From Hankyongella ginsenosidimutans (GTDB lineage Bacteria > Pseudomonadota > Alphaproteobacteria > Sphingomonadales > Sphingomonadaceae), in assembly GCF_005144965.1 (NCBI RefSeq), contig NZ_CP039704.1:1054001-1118000 (forward strand): a DNA stretch of 64,000 bases. Direction: 5' to 3'. Each line of letters starts with the position of its first letter. Positions within the stretch are counted from its first letter, which is position 1. Positions 27,313 through 35,253 of this stretch are shown here, piece by piece. The translations under genes were made by a program, and so were the position numbers. Under the pieces are notes generated by a model. That model searched no databases. It was not told the origin of the DNA and worked only from the letters and a program-made list of their open reading frames with translations.

Positions 27313-29438
27313 TCAGTCCAGCATGGCGCGGGCGGGCACGCGGATGCCGCGCTCGATGAAGCGCGCCGGGTCGTAATTGGGCCGCCAGTCGAGCACGCGC
27401 TCGGTCTCGCTGATGTCCCATTTGCAGGGCATGCCGCGCGAGCGGATGTCACGTGTGGTCGGGAAGTCGACCGCCCGGCCGCCGGCGCGCTTGATCGCCC
27501 ACTTCAGTACCTCGCCGGACTGCTGCAGCCAGATCGGCTGCGGGTGGAACTTGAGCGGACGCCCAAGCACCAGGCGCAGTTCCTCGAGATATTCGCGCGC
27601 ACTCATGTAGACGCCACCGACGATATTGTCCGTACGGCCCAGCACGGCGTCGCCCGCCTGCAGCGCCTTGACGATGGCGCTGGCGCAGTCTTCGACTAGG
27701 ACGAAAGCCAGCCCGTTGCGGCCATCATTCCAGCCCTGGCAATGCTGGTCGTTGTTGAACAGCCCGAGTGCGGAATGGAACGGCACCCCGCCCTCGCCGA
27801 CCACGACGCCGGGACGCTGGATGGTCACCGGCACGCCTTTTCGCGGTAGAGCTTCAGCAGGCGGCGCTCGGCTTCCGCCTTGGCGAAGGCATAGTCGCCG
27901 CGCTCCGCTCCGTTCGGATCGGGCTGCGTCGCCGGTGTGATCGTCTCTGTCGGATCCCCGAGCCAGAGCGCAGCGATCGAGCTCACATGCACCAGCCGCT
28001 TGACGCCTTTGGCGAGGCAGGCTTCCGCCACATCCTCGGCCGAGCCGACCATGGCGGCCACGATCGCCTCACGGGAGCCGGATGCGCCGCCGTGGGCCAG
28101 GTTGACGACATACTTCGCCGACCCGATGGCGCGCGCGATGTCGTCGCCGCGGGTGACATCGGCCCGGACAAGCGTCACGCGCTCGTGGCTGAAAATTTCC
28201 GGCAGGCCGCGGATATTGCGCGCTGCGACCCCGACGCTGTAGCCGGCTGCGACAAGCTGCTCGACGACATGGCGGCCGATGAAGCCGGTACCGCCAAACA
28301 CGGCGACATCATAAGCTGGAACCTCTGCATCGGCTGCAAGCAGATTTGCAGGCACGGGGCAGCGGTCTCGGCAACGCCGGCCTTGATCGCGACTTCCTCT
28401 GCAAGTCCTACCACGGATGTGCCGAACGCGCCGGACAGTGGCGGCACCTGGCGTGCGCTGACGGCGGTGTGGAAGCTCTCGATCGAAGCGCGCATGGACT
28501 GGAAGAAGGCGTCCTGCCGCCCGACCAGCTTCAACTGCGCGCCGAGATACCCGGCGAACCCGCCAAGCGACTGGCCGATCAGGCCCAGACCGACCCCGAC
28601 TTCGCTGACGGCCGTGTCGGCGGCCTCCAGCAGGCGGGTGCGCCCGACCCGTGCGACCGTGTTGCGGAAGCAGTCGACGATCACCGCGCCGTCGTCGCAC
28701 ACAGCCGTCAGGTGCCAGAGCGGGAAGTTCTCGCCGAACGCCATGTGCAGTTGCGCCGTCGCCGGCCCGGCGCGCAGCGACACATCGAACGCGCGGTGGA
28801 AGGATACCCCGGTGCCAGTTCCTCCGCCGATCGCGCGACGGCGGCAGTCACCGCCACGCCCTCCAGCAGATGCGCGATCTGGGACAGCGGATGCACCATC
28901 TGCTCCAGAAGGATGTTGCGCGGGCTGGCGAACATCCAGTGGCCGAACTGGCGCGCCGTCAACTGGCGCAGCGGCACGGCGCACACCAGCGAGACATGGC
29001 GCAGACGACCGTAAAGCCCTGCTTTCAGATCGCGCGCGAACCGGGCAAGCGCGGGGTGCAGGGCAAAGTTCTGGTTGACGCCAAGCGCCACGCCTTTGCC
29101 TGCCGCCAGCGCCACCAGCGCATTCGCCTCCGCCAGCGTGACGCCCAGAGGTTTCTCGAGCAAGGTCGGCAAGCCCGCATTGAGGGCCTCGCCGCCGACG
29201 GCTGCATGCAGGTGTGGCGGCACCATGACATGCACCCGGTCCACGGCCTGCGCTGCAACCGCCTCAGCCAGCGAGGCGAACGCCCGGCGCCTTGCGCCTG
29301 CGCGGCAAGACGCTCCGCAGCGCGCAGGTTCGGATCGATGACGGCCGTGACCTTGAGCCCCTTCAGGCTGCCGATGGCGTCCACATGGGTTGCGGCGATA
29401 AACCCTGCGCCGACCAGCCCTATGCGCGTCTCTGTCAT
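27313..29438 (-). CDS. Fusion: Gfo/Idh/MocA oxidoreductase + NAD-dependent epimerase
   Basis: One continuous frame of ~709 residues after restoring single bases near 29293, 28808, 28353 and 27838. Residues ~1-355 form a Gfo/Idh/MocA dehydrogenase: RIGLVGAGFIAATHVDAI, MVPPHLHAAVG, LLEKPLGVTLAEANALV (the EKP motif) and a C-terminal domain with EQMVHPLSQIAHLLEG. Residues ~370-709 form an extended SDR epimerase: VAVFGGTGFIGRHVVEQL, VHVSSIAALW, YAFAKAEAERRLL (YxxxK) and PGVVVGEGGVPF. The linker VPANLLAADAEVPAYD carries no stop in either the raw or the repaired frame. Probably modifies a sugar nucleotide by oxidation and epimerisation. Followed after 2 nt by the GT4 gene. Confidence 0.8.
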
Positions 29439-29556: not shown

Positions 29557-32500
29557 TTATTCAGCGCGCGCTTTTCGTCGTCGCGTCGCCAGCCCGCCCG
29601 CCAGGATCATGAGCACGCCAGTCCCCACGAGGCCAAGGCTGCTGGGTTCTGGCACGGGTTTACAGTCCGGGCAGACCTTGATCGATCCGTTGCCGTTGTA
29701 GACGGTCTGGGTGAGGTCCACGTTGGTGACGATGATCCGAAGAATGAGCTCATAAAGCCCCGGCGTATCCAGCGTCGTGCCAGGCCCGGTGCCGACCGTC
29801 GCGATCAAGCCGCCATAGCCGTCGCCGGTGGCCAGCAGAATTTCGCCGATATCGGTGCTGATCAACCACTCGACTGTGAACATGTCATCAGTCAGGCCCT
29901 TGATGATCGAATCCGTACCGTCAAGCCTCAGATCGTCCTTGATGCAGACTTCATAAGAGCCAGCCTCTAGATCGACCTCAACCGTGCCGCCCGAAGAACT
30001 GCCGCCGCTTGAACTGCCGCCGCTGCTTGACGATGCGCCGGAGCTGGAACCGCCCGAGCTGCCGCCGCTGGACGCGCCGCTGCTCGACGACGCGCCGGAC
30101 GAGGACGACGCTCCGCTGCTGGAGGACGCCCCGGACGAGGACGACGCGCCGCTACTGGACGACGCCCCGGACGAGGACGAGGCTCCACTGCTCGACGACG
30201 CACCGGACGAGGACGATGCCCCGCTGCTGGAGGACGCCCCGGACGAGGAGGAGGCTCCACTGCTCGACGATGCACCGGACGAGGACGAGGCTCCGCTGCT
30301 GGACGATGCCCCGGACGAGGACGATGCCCCGCTGCTGGAGGACGCCCCGGACGAGGACGAGGCCCCGCTGCTGGAGGACGCCCCGGACGAGGACGACGCG
30401 CCGCTGCTGGAGGATGCACCGGACGAGGACGACGCGCCGCTGCTGGACGACGCACCGGACGAGGACGAGGCTCCGCTGCTGGAGGACGCCCCGGACGAGG
30501 ACGATGCCCCGCTGCTGGAGGACGCCCCGGACGAGGACGATGCGCCGCTGCTGGACGACGCCCCGGACGAGGACGACGCGCCGCTGCTGGAGGACGCCCG
30601 GACGAGGACGAGGCTCCGCTGCTCGACGATGCACCGGACGAGGACGATGCCCCGCTGCTCGACGATGCACCGGACGACGACGACGCGCCGCTGCTGGACG
30701 ATGCACCGGACGACGCGCCGCTGCTGGAGGATGCACCAGACGAAGACGACGCTCCACTGCTCGACGACGCCCCGGACGAGGACGACGCTCCACTGCTGGA
30801 GGACGCCCCGGACGAAGACGACGCTCCGCTACTGGAGGATGCACCGGAGGAACTGCTGGACCCATCAGACCCCGAGGATGAGCCGCCACCGCCGCCACCG
30901 CCACCGCCACCGCCGCCGCCGGATGCCGGCGTCAGGAACGTCGGGACAGAGCCGCGCGACGAGCCGGGGCCGCGCACGCCGGGCGCACCGGTATTCGCCG
31001 CCTGCGACGGGAAGGCATAGTAGCCGATCGGGCTGCCGGCATCAGGCGCGATGTCCGGCAAACCGGCGGCATCCGGCACCTGCTCGGACGACGCCACTTC
31101 CGACGGCTCGCCGGCGGCCGGATTGACGTCTGGCGCACGCTGGGCGATGCCGCGCGGCCGCTGCACCGCCCGGCCCGGATCGAGCTTGTCGGGGACGACC
31201 ACCATACCGGCGATGACCGGTTCCTTGCCGGCGGCCGGCGAGAGATCGATGACCAGCTTGCCGTCCTTCACCGTCGCGCGCGTCGCCATCACCACGCCGC
31301 AATGCCCACGGCGGTCCAGCACATGGGCCGGCTGCATGGAGACGGTCTTGGCGTTCTCGAGCGCCTGCCCGGCCGGGCCGCGCACCCGGCCTTCCAGACC
31401 ACCGCGCAGACCGACCGCCGGTGCGGCGTGGCGGACCCAGAGTTCCGGCGATATGCCGCGCAGGTCAAGGCTCGCGACTTCAACGCCGTTGATCTTGACC
31501 GGGCCGCCAAACGCCTCCGGCGAACCGCCAGGCTCATAGATTTTCGGCGCATAGAGATAGACCCGGTATTCGCCGTTCGGCAATTCCGCCTCGATGCGGC
31601 GAACCCCGCTGATGCCCTCGGTGGTGAGGTTCGCGCGCCATGGCGCGATGTCGACGATGCCGAGATTTTCGCCGCTGATGTGCACATTGCCCGGCTCGAC
31701 CCGGGCGAACTTGCCGTAGCCGGCCTTGCCCTTCTGCACGAAGTCGTAGAACAGGCCGCGCTTGCTTGCTGCCACGTCGCGGCGGATCATGCCGCGCATG
31801 AAATAGGCTTTGCCGGCCGACGCCTGCATCGCGGCCATCACCGTGTCCCGCAGCGGGCTCTTGATCGTGAGGTCCGCACCGGCGGCGGCCAGCACCGCGC
31901 GTGCGCGGGTGATCAGGCGTGCGCTGTCGCCGCCCGCCTGGTCGAAAAACGCCTGCAGATTGGCAAGCCCTTCCGGCGTGCCGGACTTCGCGCCCGCAAC
32001 CGCATCTTCGAGCACGACCGCTGTGAGCGGTGCGGTGACGATACCGTTCGTTGGGCGCTCCAGCGCAGCAGGCGGGCGCACGAAGTCAATGAAGGACGCA
32101 GCGTTGCCATTGGTCGCGCCCAGCGCCGCCGTGATCGTCTGGCCGGTCAGACGCTGCGCCCGCACATAATCGGTGCGTTGAAGCAGAACGGCGTTCAACA
32201 GCGTCGGGGCACCGGCTTCCGGAATGAGGTCGAGGGTCAGCCGGCCGTTGCGCACCGCCACAGGCACCGCCAGGGCAACACCTGTGAGCGCGGGATCCGC
32301 CTTCGCAAGATCGCCCTCCGGCTGGTAAGTCGCCCCTGAGACGATGCCGCGCACTTCTTCCGGCGCGTGCAGGCCGATGCCTTTCGCGGTCAGGTCGGTC
32401 CAGCCGCTGGCTGGCGTGATTTCGGTCTCGCTCAACGGGCGGGCGACGCCGTTGACCTTGATCCTGCGACCGAACGGCCACGCGACCGCCGCCTGATCCG

Positions 32501-33188
32501 CTGCGCGCGCGACAGCAGGACGACACGATAGTCGCCGTTCGGCAGCGGCACGCTGAAGCGGGTGGCGCCGGAGACGCCGGCCGCGAACACGCCCTTTGCG
32601 TCGGGGGCGGCCACCTCAGTCACATCGCCGCCGAGCACCGCCGGTGAAAGGGCCCTGGCACCCGGCAGCGCCTTGGCGTCGACGGCCCAGGCCAGCCGGG
32701 CATCGGACGGCGCAGCGTCCGGCGTGATCCGCGCCGGCATATAGTGCGCACGCAGCATGGCGCGCACAGTCGCCTGCCGCACGGCGAGCGCCGCACGCTG
32801 CGCCTGCGCCGGGTCGCGCCAGCGCTTGTCCCTCGACATGGCGACCATCAGGCTGCGGTTCAGCGCCACAAGCGCATCGGCATCGCCGAACGCGCTGTCG
32901 AAATAGCGCGCCAGCGCCGTGCCAGCGCTGTTCTCGAACGCGGCCTGCGCCGCCTGGGTAACGGCCAGTGGGTGCTGGTCCTCGACGCCGGCCAGCGCAG
33001 CGTATCCGCAGCCGCCTGCCGGGTGAACCCGTCCGCACCCTGTTCGGCATTCGCAAGAGTCGCCAGTGCCAGCGGCTGCCCGACAGGCGACGGTGCAAGA
33101 AAATTATGATCCGCATTCGCGACGACAAACGCCGTCGCCGCCGTAAAACAGCCGCCAGGAGGCCTAGGATTTTCACACGCTGGCTCAA
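29557..33188 (-). CDS. Large PEP-CTERM surface protein with Ser/Gly/Ala repeat linker
   Basis: About 1200 residues once indels are repaired (near 33152, 32995, 32480 and 30600). TTG start at 33188 and signal peptide SQRVKILGLLAAV-FTAATAFVVANA. The N-terminal half has two beta-rich modules, each with a 'PLPNGDYRVVLLS' / 'LPNGEYRVYLYAP' strand and a 'NGRLTLDLIPEAG' / 'DGKLVIDLSPAAG' strand, recalling malectin-like carbohydrate-binding folds (inference). Then come a poly-Gly run, the Ser/Gly/Ala repeats and a ~110-residue domain with Cys pairs (VCPDC). The C-terminal sorting signal is V-P-E-P, a hydrophobic helix and RRRKARAE, the PEP-CTERM tripartite signal cut by exosortase. The Ser-rich linker is a likely glycosylation region. 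No exosortase in the window. Confidence 0.82.
30026..30850 (-). repeat. 18-bp tandem repeat coding (Gly-Ala-Ser4)n
   Basis: About 45 imperfect 18-bp units, many in 36-bp higher-order pairs, encode G-A-S-S-S-S over roughly 275 residues of the PEP-CTERM protein. Repeats differ only at synonymous or near-synonymous positions, so they are selected as protein. One C is missing near 30600. The opposite strand reads as an acidic PDEDDAPLLEDA repeat, which is a shadow. The bordering poly-Gly tract (30885-30925) is 12-14 residues. Confidence 0.9.
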
Positions 33189-33555
33189 AACTGAAGCCCC
33201 CGATCCACTTGGTCATGCTTAATGCGCATCGTTTATGAACAAGCCATGAACGCAAACGTGAGCTTCGGCGCCACTAAACGACATATATCTAGAAACACAG
33301 CAATTTCTCTGCCAAGCTGCTCCACCCCGCCATTCTTGCTCTATATTACTAACAGATTAAACATTTTTCCACTGAGGAACATTCGCATCCCCAGCAATTT
33401 CAGCGACAATCGCCTGACGCAATACTGCCATGGGCCATGATGTCATCCTTGACGCTTTGTAAGAAAAATCGACATTTGTGCCCCGGGAGCGCCCCGAAAC
33501 AGGACATGTGTTTGTGGCTTGACCGCCCCGGCGTTGGCCGCCAGAAGCATCAGGA
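33189..33555. other. Divergent intergenic region between PEP-CTERM gene and xseB
   Basis: About 370 bases, distinctly AT-rich in 33230-33400. It must hold the promoters of the PEP-CTERM gene (minus) and of the xseB-ispA-coaD run (plus). I see no gene, no strong hairpin and no copy of the palindromic repeats found elsewhere in the window. Confidence 0.5.
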
Positions 33556-33837
33556 ATGACAGACCAGGACCTGCAGGATCAGATCAGGACGCTCTCGTTC
33601 GAGCAAGCGATCGAGCGGCTTGAGGCCATTGTCGGCCAGCTCGAGCAGGGTCGCGCCGGGCTGGAGCAATCCATCGCGTTGTTCGCCGAAGGCTCGGAAC
33701 TCAAGCGTCATTGCGCGGCCAAACTTGCCGATGCACAGATGCGGATCGAGCGGCTGCAGATCGATGCGGACGGTCAACCGCGCGGCAGCGCGCCTTTGTC
33801 ACGGACACCCCATGATCGCGCCAGGACCCGGCCTTAA
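33556..33837 (+). CDS. xseB: Exodeoxyribonuclease VII small subunit
   Basis: Small helical subunit of exonuclease VII, which degrades single-stranded DNA. 93 residues in the frame as read; the helical hairpin LSFEQAIERLEAIVGQLEQG and the short repeat LEQSIALFAEGSELKRHCAAKL are diagnostic. The C-terminal ~15 residues overlap the ispA start and may be altered by a lost base. xseB-ispA order is widespread. Confidence 0.92.
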   Translation: MTDQDLQDQIRTLSFEQAIERLEAIVGQLEQGRAGLEQSIALFAEGSELKRHCAAKLADAQMRIERLQIDADGQPRGSAPLSRTPHDRARTRP

Positions 33838-34709
33838 ACCCGCCCTCGACCAGCTCGCCATCACCATGGATCAGCGGTTCGACCGCCTGCTCCCGCTCTC
33901 GTCAGACCCGCGCAAGCGCCTGATCGAGGCGATGCGCTACGCGACAATCGGCGGCGGCAAGCGCATGCGCCCACTGCTGACGATCGCGGCCTGCGACCTG
34001 TTTCATGTCGACCGGGAGCGCGCGTTGCGGGTCGCGCTCGCGGTCGAGTGCGTGCACTGTTACAGCCTGGTTCACGACGATCTGCCCTGCATGGACGACG
34101 ACGATCTCCGCCGCGGCCGGCCGACGGTGCACAAGGCGTTCGACGATGCGACCGCCGTGCTAGCGGGCGATGGCCTGTTGACCATCGCCTTCGAAATCCT
34201 GGCCGATGCGGAGACCCATGAGGACCCGCGCGTCCGCATCGATCTGGTGAAGGAACTGGCGAGCGCTTCCGGCGTCGCGGGCATGGTCGGCGGTCAGGCC
34301 ATGGACATCGCGGCGGAAGAGACAACGTTCGACCTGCCGGCCACCACCCGGCTTCAGCAGCTCAAGACCGGGGCGCTGATCGCCTTTTGCCTGGAGGCGG
34401 GCGGCATCATGGGCCGGGCCACCCGGAGCAGCGCGTGCATCTGCGTGGCTATGCACACGATCTCGGGCTTGCGTTCCAGATCGCTGACGACCTGCTGGAT
34501 GTCGAAGGGGATATCGAACTGGTCGGCAAGGCAGTGCAAAGGATACGGACGCCGGCAAATCCACCTTCGTCTCCCTGCTCGGCATCGACCGCGCCCGCCA
34601 GCAAGCGCAGATTCTGATTGACCAGTCGATCAGCCATCTGTCCAGTTTCGGTGCCCAGGCGGACCTGCTGCGGGCGATCGCGCGCTTCGCCATCGAGCGC
34701 GATCATTGA
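33812..34709 (+). CDS. ispA: Farnesyl/geranyl diphosphate synthase
   Basis: Prenyltransferase making farnesyl diphosphate from IPP and DMAPP, the precursor used by HpnD/HpnC for hopanoids and for undecaprenyl and ubiquinone side chains. About 299 residues: GGGKRMRPLL, first Asp-rich motif LVHDDLPCMDDDDLRRGRPT, KTGALIAFCLEAGGIMG, and second motif FQIADDLLDVEGD. One C is missing near 34425 and one A near 34540. The ATG at 33812 lies within the end of xseB. Product chain length (C15) is by family default. Confidence 0.93.
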
Positions 34710-34740
34710 TCCTGTCCCATTCGCGGTTCGGAGACGCGTG

Positions 34741-35253
34741 ATGCAGAACGGCGCAACCATCGCGGTCTACCCCGGAACCTTTGATCCGATTACGCTCGGC
34801 CATCTGGACATCATCCGCCGCGGTGCCAAGCTGGTGGACCGGCTCGTGATCGGCGTCGCGACCAACCCTTCGAAGACGCCGATGTTCTCGCTTGACGAGC
34901 GCGTGGAGCAGGTCCGGCGAGAGACCGCCGATATCCACGGCCAGATCGAAGTCGTTGCGTTCGACAGTCTGTTGATGAAGTTCGCCGAAAGCCAGAAAGC
35001 CAACATGATCCTGCGCGGCCTGCGCGCCGTGTCCGACTTCGAATACGAGTTCCAGATGGCGGGCATGAACCAGAAGCTCAACGCCAATATCGAGACCGTG
35101 TTTCTCATGGCGGACGTCGCGCTGCAGCCCATCGCCTCGCGCCTGGTGAAGGAGATTGCGATGTTCGGCGGCGATATCGACAGTTTCGTACCGCCGCGTA
35201 TCGCCAGAGACGTCGCCGCGCGCGTCGCCGACGGGATCAACGAGAAGAGTTAA
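34741..35253 (+). CDS. coaD: Phosphopantetheine adenylyltransferase
   Basis: Fourth step of coenzyme A synthesis, joining AMP to 4'-phosphopantetheine. Intact, 170 residues. The nucleotidyltransferase motif VYPGTFDPITLGHLDIIRR (T/HxGH) and the segment LRGLRAVSDFEYEFQMAGMN are conserved. ATG at 34741 is preceded by an in-frame GTG codon. Directly follows ispA (31 bp) and precedes the cyclophilin by 2 bp, so probably one transcript. Confidence 0.96.
   Translation: MQNGATIAVYPGTFDPITLGHLDIIRRGAKLVDRLVIGVATNPSKTPMFSLDERVEQVRRETADIHGQIEVVAFDSLLMKFAESQKANMILRGLRAVSDFEYEFQMAGMNQKLNANIETVFLMADVALQPIASRLVKEIAMFGGDIDSFVPPRIARDVAARVADGINEKS

Follow-up and report, generated by a model that had tools for sequence, protein, structure and literature searches.

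A candidate exosortase-anchored protein with paired lectin-like modules and an exchanged repeat stalk in Hankyongella ginsenosidimutans

In the window, that is, the whole stretch of 64,000 nucleotides of Hankyongella ginsenosidimutans analyzed here (contig NZ_CP039704.1, positions 1,054,001 to 1,118,000), a long GASSSS repeat lies among broken reading frames, and an acidic repeat frame is open on the opposite strand. The locus therefore raises the question of whether a single protein is encoded there, on which strand, and what such a repeat could do in it. Exosortase substrates are mostly without known function and show little homology beyond their tail.

Our results indicate that the minus strand from 33188 to 29557 is one gene of ~1,200 residues with four frame breaks in ~3.6 kb, as a previous sequence-only reading had claimed after frame repair, and that its parts follow each other on that strand in the order proposed there (Table 1). 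The frame changes near 33145 (1 to 0), 32990 (0 to 2), 32480 (2 to 1) and 30600 (1 to 0). The break near 32480 falls inside module 1, whose profile matches one frame with positions 5-166 and the following frame with positions 190-265, and the BLASTP alignments to two relatives (G055 and G039) run on in order past it. Similarly, the break near 30600 falls inside the repeat, and the GAS repeat carries on in the new frame. From there the frame is open up to the stop of the gene, joining 30 GAS units, the C-terminal domain (C-domain) and the PEP-CTERM tail with no repair needed; the stop between the repeat and the VPEP domain that the sequence-only reading had named as a possible objection is absent.

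Table 1. Features of the gene and its surroundings (window positions).
Feature	Position	Strand	Remarks
Whole gene	29557..33188	-	start TTG 33188 or GTG 33176; stop 29559-29557; relatives align across the breaks
Signal-peptide-like N-terminus	33110..33188	-	MKILGLLAAV / FTAATAFVVANA across the ~33145 break; read by eye, two frames joined
Module 1, helical + beta-sandwich	32190..33000	-	split by breaks near 32990 and 32480
Module 2, four helices then malectin/CBM35/YxiM-like beta-sandwich	31206..32021	-	HMM E 7.4e-77
Connector with NPAAG (APAAG in relatives)	30921..31205	-	
Low-complexity stalk	29981..30920	-	G13, ~44 GASSSS units, then GGSSS units
PKD/Ig-like beta domain (C-domain)	29661..29980	-	EVC and CPDC cysteines; adjoins the membrane segment
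PEP-CTERM sorting signal VPEPSSLGLVGTGVLMILAGGLATRRRKARAE	29575..29658	-	PF07589 and TIGR02595
Sigma-54-like -24/-12 site TTGGCAGAGAAATTGCT (putative)	33299..33315	-	111-123 nt upstream of the start codon
Spurious acidic repeat ORF DDAPDEDDAPLLED	29984..31126	+	reverse complement of the stalk

Four breaks within 3.6 kb could also be taken as genuine, in which case the locus would be a pseudogene or two or three adjacent genes. However, contig positions 1-71827 match positions 2808874-2880753 at 99.74% (71.8 kb, both contig ends), most likely one circular overlap assembled twice, and these two copies show 14 mismatches and 124 indels, with a length that is not a multiple of three in 117 of the indels. 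Assuming that the errors are split equally between the copies, this corresponds to ~0.8 frame-breaking indels per kb per copy and predicts about three in the gene, where four are observed. Since the same 71.8 kb assembled twice differs by 117 frame-shifting indels, such breaks are to be expected here. In addition, conserved genes of the XrtA locus, including that of XrtA itself, are split in the same manner, the full GASSSS units differ only synonymously, and the gene is uninterrupted in most relatives. Therefore, the frame breaks are assembly errors, and a truly broken gene seems highly improbable to us. The neighboring oxidoreductase and IspA-like genes (window 28708-29438 and 33837-34800) are frame-split too, as the error rate predicts. 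The chromosome itself is probably circular with a length of ~2.81 Mb, and the duplicated contig ends may account for part of the 6.5% contamination estimate.

The repeat comprises 44 GASn matches and, where the frame breaks, one RASSSS; it lies within a low-complexity stretch of 313 residues with 63% Ser. TRF describes it with a period of 36 bp (21.8 copies, 30071-30848, score 1024), because two codon classes of the 18-bp unit alternate (TCC-TCC-AGC-AGC and TCG-TCC-TCG-TCC). Among the 41 full GASSSS units of these two classes used in the codon test, all 11 variable sites fall on minus-strand third codon positions and none on first or second positions. This decides the question of the strand: the plus-strand frame at 29984-31126 is open over 380 codons and could be read as the gene of an acidic repeat protein, but it is spurious because every variable site is a minus-strand third codon position. 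It also crosses the same frame break, where it becomes arginine-rich nonsense, and no relative needs it. The chance that it is coding is close to nil, in line with the sequence-only reading, which had already called this protein false.

All the parts listed by that reading (signal-peptide-like start, two modules, poly-Gly, GASSSS repeat, cysteine-containing domain and tail) are present. The relatives likewise start with a basic, hydrophobic segment. The iterated HMM recovers module 1 in two pieces, one in frame 2 (E 2.2e-37) and the other in frame 1 (E 1.1e-11), and the same pieces are obtained via alignment A1. The C-domain shows 23-34% identity to 24 relatives in alignment A3; its AlphaFold2 model (pLDDT 73.7) includes a helix at 116-141, which agrees with the transmembrane helix of the tail, PKD profiles give weak matches (E 0.0047 at best) in 3-4 of 25 relatives and none in the window protein, and Foldseek retrieves weak antibody-like matches only, none at E <= 0.001. 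At the C-terminal end, the PEP motif, the transmembrane helix and the basic cluster are all present, and both PEP-CTERM profiles exceed their cutoffs (PF07589 26.4 bits, cutoff 20.7; TIGR02595 20.9 bits, cutoff 16), so that the proposed VPEP/helix/RRRK tail was correctly recognized. These features, together with the richness in Ser, are common to the substrates of exosortase (EpsH, XrtA) (PMC1569441). Upstream of the gene, the degenerate pattern of the putative sigma-54-like site has 9 matches genome-wide against 6 for the reversed control, so that the site is no more than suggestive. This site was rejected as a feature of the family, being found in just a few relatives.

The genome also encodes the machinery that such a tail calls for. 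The exosortase whose absence would have argued against the sequence-only reading is there, with XrtA above cutoff (TIGR03109, 265.7 bits, cutoff 208), and the genome search suggested by that reading also yields PF07589 matches at 18 places, corresponding to 17 distinct PEP-CTERM genes, since two of them are one gene present in both contig ends. The XrtA locus is frame-broken, with TIGR03087 above cutoff and partial matches to TIGR03007, TIGR03015, TIGR03016 and TIGR03108. PrsR is detected (513.7 bits, cutoff 502.6), and PrsT lies in frame-broken pieces just downstream of it, none of which reaches the cutoff. XrtA, an EPS locus, PrsR and several PEP-CTERM genes per genome are features of the PEP-CTERM/EpsH system (Haft 2006; PMC1569441) and are all shared by this genome.

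The N-terminal region consists of two copies of one alpha+beta module. The sequence-only reading had seen two beta-rich modules; the two modules do exist, but their nature as an uncatalogued alpha+beta pair with a carbohydrate-binding-like predicted fold had been missed. No explaining match was found among Pfam, NCBIfam or PDB sequences, the best PDB match by sequence being designed helical repeats (E 0.011). Likewise, 24 members of the module gave no match to Pfam, including the malectin, CBM35 and CBM6 profiles, and PF21254 (AGA-YXIM_GBD) matched no member of alignment A1 at E <= 1 and nothing across 142 genomes including this one. By these sequence comparisons, the module is an uncatalogued family, absent from Pfam and NCBIfam.

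The AlphaFold2 model of the module (24-sequence alignment, pLDDT 82.8, pTM 0.83) presents four helices followed by a beta-sandwich. In Foldseek, YxiM of B. subtilis alone scores under 0.001 (E 1.1e-5), and the Foldseek alignments have a high rmsd (5-12 A). VIA gives Z values of 10.6 for the C-terminal domains of Bacteroides beta-glucuronidases, 10.1 for YxiM and 9.8 for plant FER, followed by malectin (7.9) and CBM35 (7.8), all of these matches covering module residues ~95-286, the beta half. As Z values under 8 may reflect no more than a common arrangement, the case for the fold rests on the glucuronidase, YxiM and FER matches. The beta half is thus modeled as a jelly roll of the YxiM/malectin/CBM35 type, the same predicted fold as the AGA-YXIM galactose-binding-like domain (PF21254; PDB 2o14), malectin and CBM35, which the model suggests could bind sugar. 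In contrast to these domains, the module has four extra N-terminal helices and lacks a sequence match to them.

The module also occurs in other protein contexts. A FecR-like domain is inserted in the loop between its two beta parts in three alphaproteobacterial loci (L051, confirmed by Pfam, L053 and L054), and FecR-like domains lie outside the module in L058, where Pfam finds two FecR stretches, and L066. Nine forms that are not PEP-CTERM proteins (L048, L050, L051, L054, L062, L063, L064, L066 and L067) share a C-terminal tail whose last residues are SPN or SPS and which may serve as a signal for sorting or binding. Finally, the beta half is found alone in proteins of 770-1,170 residues (L072, L073, L075 and L076) with a conserved second part, GYLQWHGRMPTADPFDPTDGRE, that resembles a glycosidase; searches with L072 and L073 retrieved no Pfam family at 1e-5.

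Homologues of the module were found in 23 of 98 relatives, including Kordiimonas and other Kordiimonadaceae, and its profile matches 33 of 385 sampled alphaproteobacterial genomes; outside Alphaproteobacteria, none was found among the sampled genomes of the phylum. In the sample from its own family, the protein is common to G039 and G055 only, and two modules are also present in these two and in G060. An exosortase is present in 21 of the 23 module-bearing relatives and in 55 of the 75 others, a difference in the expected direction but not significant (p = 0.058); the co-occurrence is weak because exosortase is common among these relatives. In seven Kordiimonadaceae genomes, the gene and an exosortase share a contig, at a distance of 17-30 kb, although these are not independent cases, the linkage being shared by descent among related species. 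In one of them (G083), the stretch between the exosortase and the gene is the XrtA locus, with XrtA, PrsT and the chain-length, export, ATPase and glycosyltransferase families above cutoff, and beyond this locus a single ORF separates PrsT and the priming glycosyltransferase from the gene. That intervening ORF (L148, 18641-19534) is similar to the C-terminal region of CobT (NaMN:DMB phosphoribosyltransferase), with a score far short of the cutoff. A search of the flanks in relatives, run without a positive control, found none of the neighbors of the window gene. In the literature, our search found no paper linking Kordiimonas with PEP-CTERM, and the papers it found on Sphingomonas and PEP-CTERM were unrelated, judging by their titles and abstracts.

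Comparison of the relatives shows which parts of the protein are kept. Across the order, complete relatives retain the module, a connector of APAAG type and the sorting tail, and in most cases the C-domain as well, while their stalks are built of TDP, GGDT, EP, TPEP, PPPGGN, GTTD, GGSTTT, GGDTGGS or GSSSS repeats. The stalk of G039 (L077), a protein without the C-domain, is built of a cysteine-rich repeat, CPAGTTRDANGVCQPT, that brings TraA to mind, showing that not every stalk is a simple disordered polymer. Between K. laminariae and G062, the N parts are 98% and the C parts 93% identical, against 55% for the stalk, which is (PEPPTTPDPE)n over 118 residues in the former and (EP)n over 165 residues in the latter. 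Across 105 pairs of Kordiimonadaceae proteins, mean identity is 60% in the N part, 36% in the stalk, a figure inflated by shared Pro/Glu composition, and 56% in the C part. Regarding the tail, that of G070 (L092) is of VPLPA type, and in the f8 genomes (L079, L080 and L088) APPML, APASL or EPPML replace PEP.

The sequence-only reading had considered the size and repeat purity of this protein unusual for an alphaproteobacterium, which our comparison does not support: stalks in the same order are as long or longer, and purer, with 114 PTD units, 81 TGGD, 68 TGGSGGD and ~558 residues of GSTT type. Its focus on the long repeat was right in that the repeat is real, but missed that the stalk is the part exchanged between relatives. 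Within the family, a long pure repeat is nothing out of the ordinary; the novelty lies in the lectin-like module and in stalk exchange. With heads and tail conserved and unrelated repeats replacing each other in the stalk, the latter appears to be under selection for being long, flexible and soluble and not for its sequence. An active stalk could be imagined instead, in which dense O-glycans turn the protein into a mucin-like matrix, and its heads may bind the glycans of neighbors in a form of self-assembly. The 63% Ser of the window stalk, the richness in Ser/Thr of several relatives' stalks and the enrichment of Ser, Thr and Asn in PEP-CTERM proteins (PMC1569441) fit this idea; however, the stalks of many relatives are of Pro/Glu or Pro/Gly type and poor in Ser/Thr, such as that of G062, (EP)n, and that of G079, (PPPGGN)n, and therefore glycosylation is not the shared function of the stalk. 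We consider this possibility very unlikely.

Together, these observations lead us to favor, as the probable explanation, an exosortase-anchored adhesin that binds EPS, made of heads, stalk and anchor, in which the stalk would be selected for length and disorder and not for sequence. Starting from the parts seen in the sequence or its models (signal-peptide-like start, modules, stalk, PKD-like domain, tail, and XrtA with the EPS locus), the protein would be exported via Sec, and XrtA would cleave it at the PEP motif and deliver it to the outer cell surface or into the EPS layer. The stalk (~310 residues of Gly/Ala/Ser), which would be disordered and may carry O-glycans, could keep the heads off the cell, and the heads may bind polysaccharide, tying the cell to the matrix by analogy with flocculins and TraA. 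The stalk would evolve by replacement and expansion of repeat units.

Several observations weigh against the adhesin: no carbohydrate-binding family matches the module by sequence, a shared fold being no proof of binding; the Foldseek alignments have a high rmsd; the co-occurrence with exosortase is weak; the gene and the XrtA locus are 650 kb apart in this genome; and the stalk of G039 is cysteine-rich. The first is also an argument for the same exported and anchored plan with heads that are not lectins, where the beta-sandwich would bind proteins or be structural and the whole protein would be a spacer or an S-layer-like or sensory component of the matrix. The fusion of related modules to FecR domains agrees with this, as does the binding of peptides by such jelly rolls, the plant FER/RALF23 complex being among the fold matches. 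Nevertheless, the fold of the module is matched most strongly by an esterase-linked galactose-binding-like domain, by accessory domains of glucuronidases, and by malectin and CBM35, and the gene adjoins the EPS/XrtA locus in Kordiimonas; non-lectin heads are thus a possibility that we take seriously but find rather doubtful.

The proposed EPS-binding adhesin has counterparts in known systems. PepA of Aquincola is a PEP-CTERM protein able to hold EPS on cells in flocs (PMC9850573). It is small (under 29 kDa), whereas the window protein is far longer and has a pair of alpha+beta modules on a long stalk of repeats, and the PepA profile NF033554 reaches 25.4 bits (cutoff 80) in a match confined to the tail. 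The general plan is closer to that of TraA of Myxococcus xanthus, with a signal peptide, a lectin-like head, a repeat stalk and a C-terminal sorting tag, and to that of the yeast flocculins FLO1/FLO5, with a lectin head, a tandem-repeat stalk and a C-terminal surface anchor, so that the head-stalk-anchor plan exists in working systems (PMC3325183). The cysteine-rich stalk of TraA is paralleled in G039. However, the head described here is not identified as PA14 and its tag is PEP-CTERM instead of MYXO-CTERM, while the flocculins are eukaryotic and GPI-anchored; both cases are analogies, with no claim of homology.

A recognizable family with a conserved lectin-like module beside an EPS/XrtA locus, as in the cultivated Kordiimonas, makes the function of an exosortase substrate testable, and its conserved ends with swapped stalks provide a natural series for studying which properties selection acts on in a disordered surface tether. 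More tentatively, this could be an exosortase-anchored, lectin-like family in which head and anchor are fixed and the stalk, selected only for its physical properties, is rapidly replaced. If so, stalk replacement would perhaps retune the reach of the protein or evade phages, proteases or glycan recognition.
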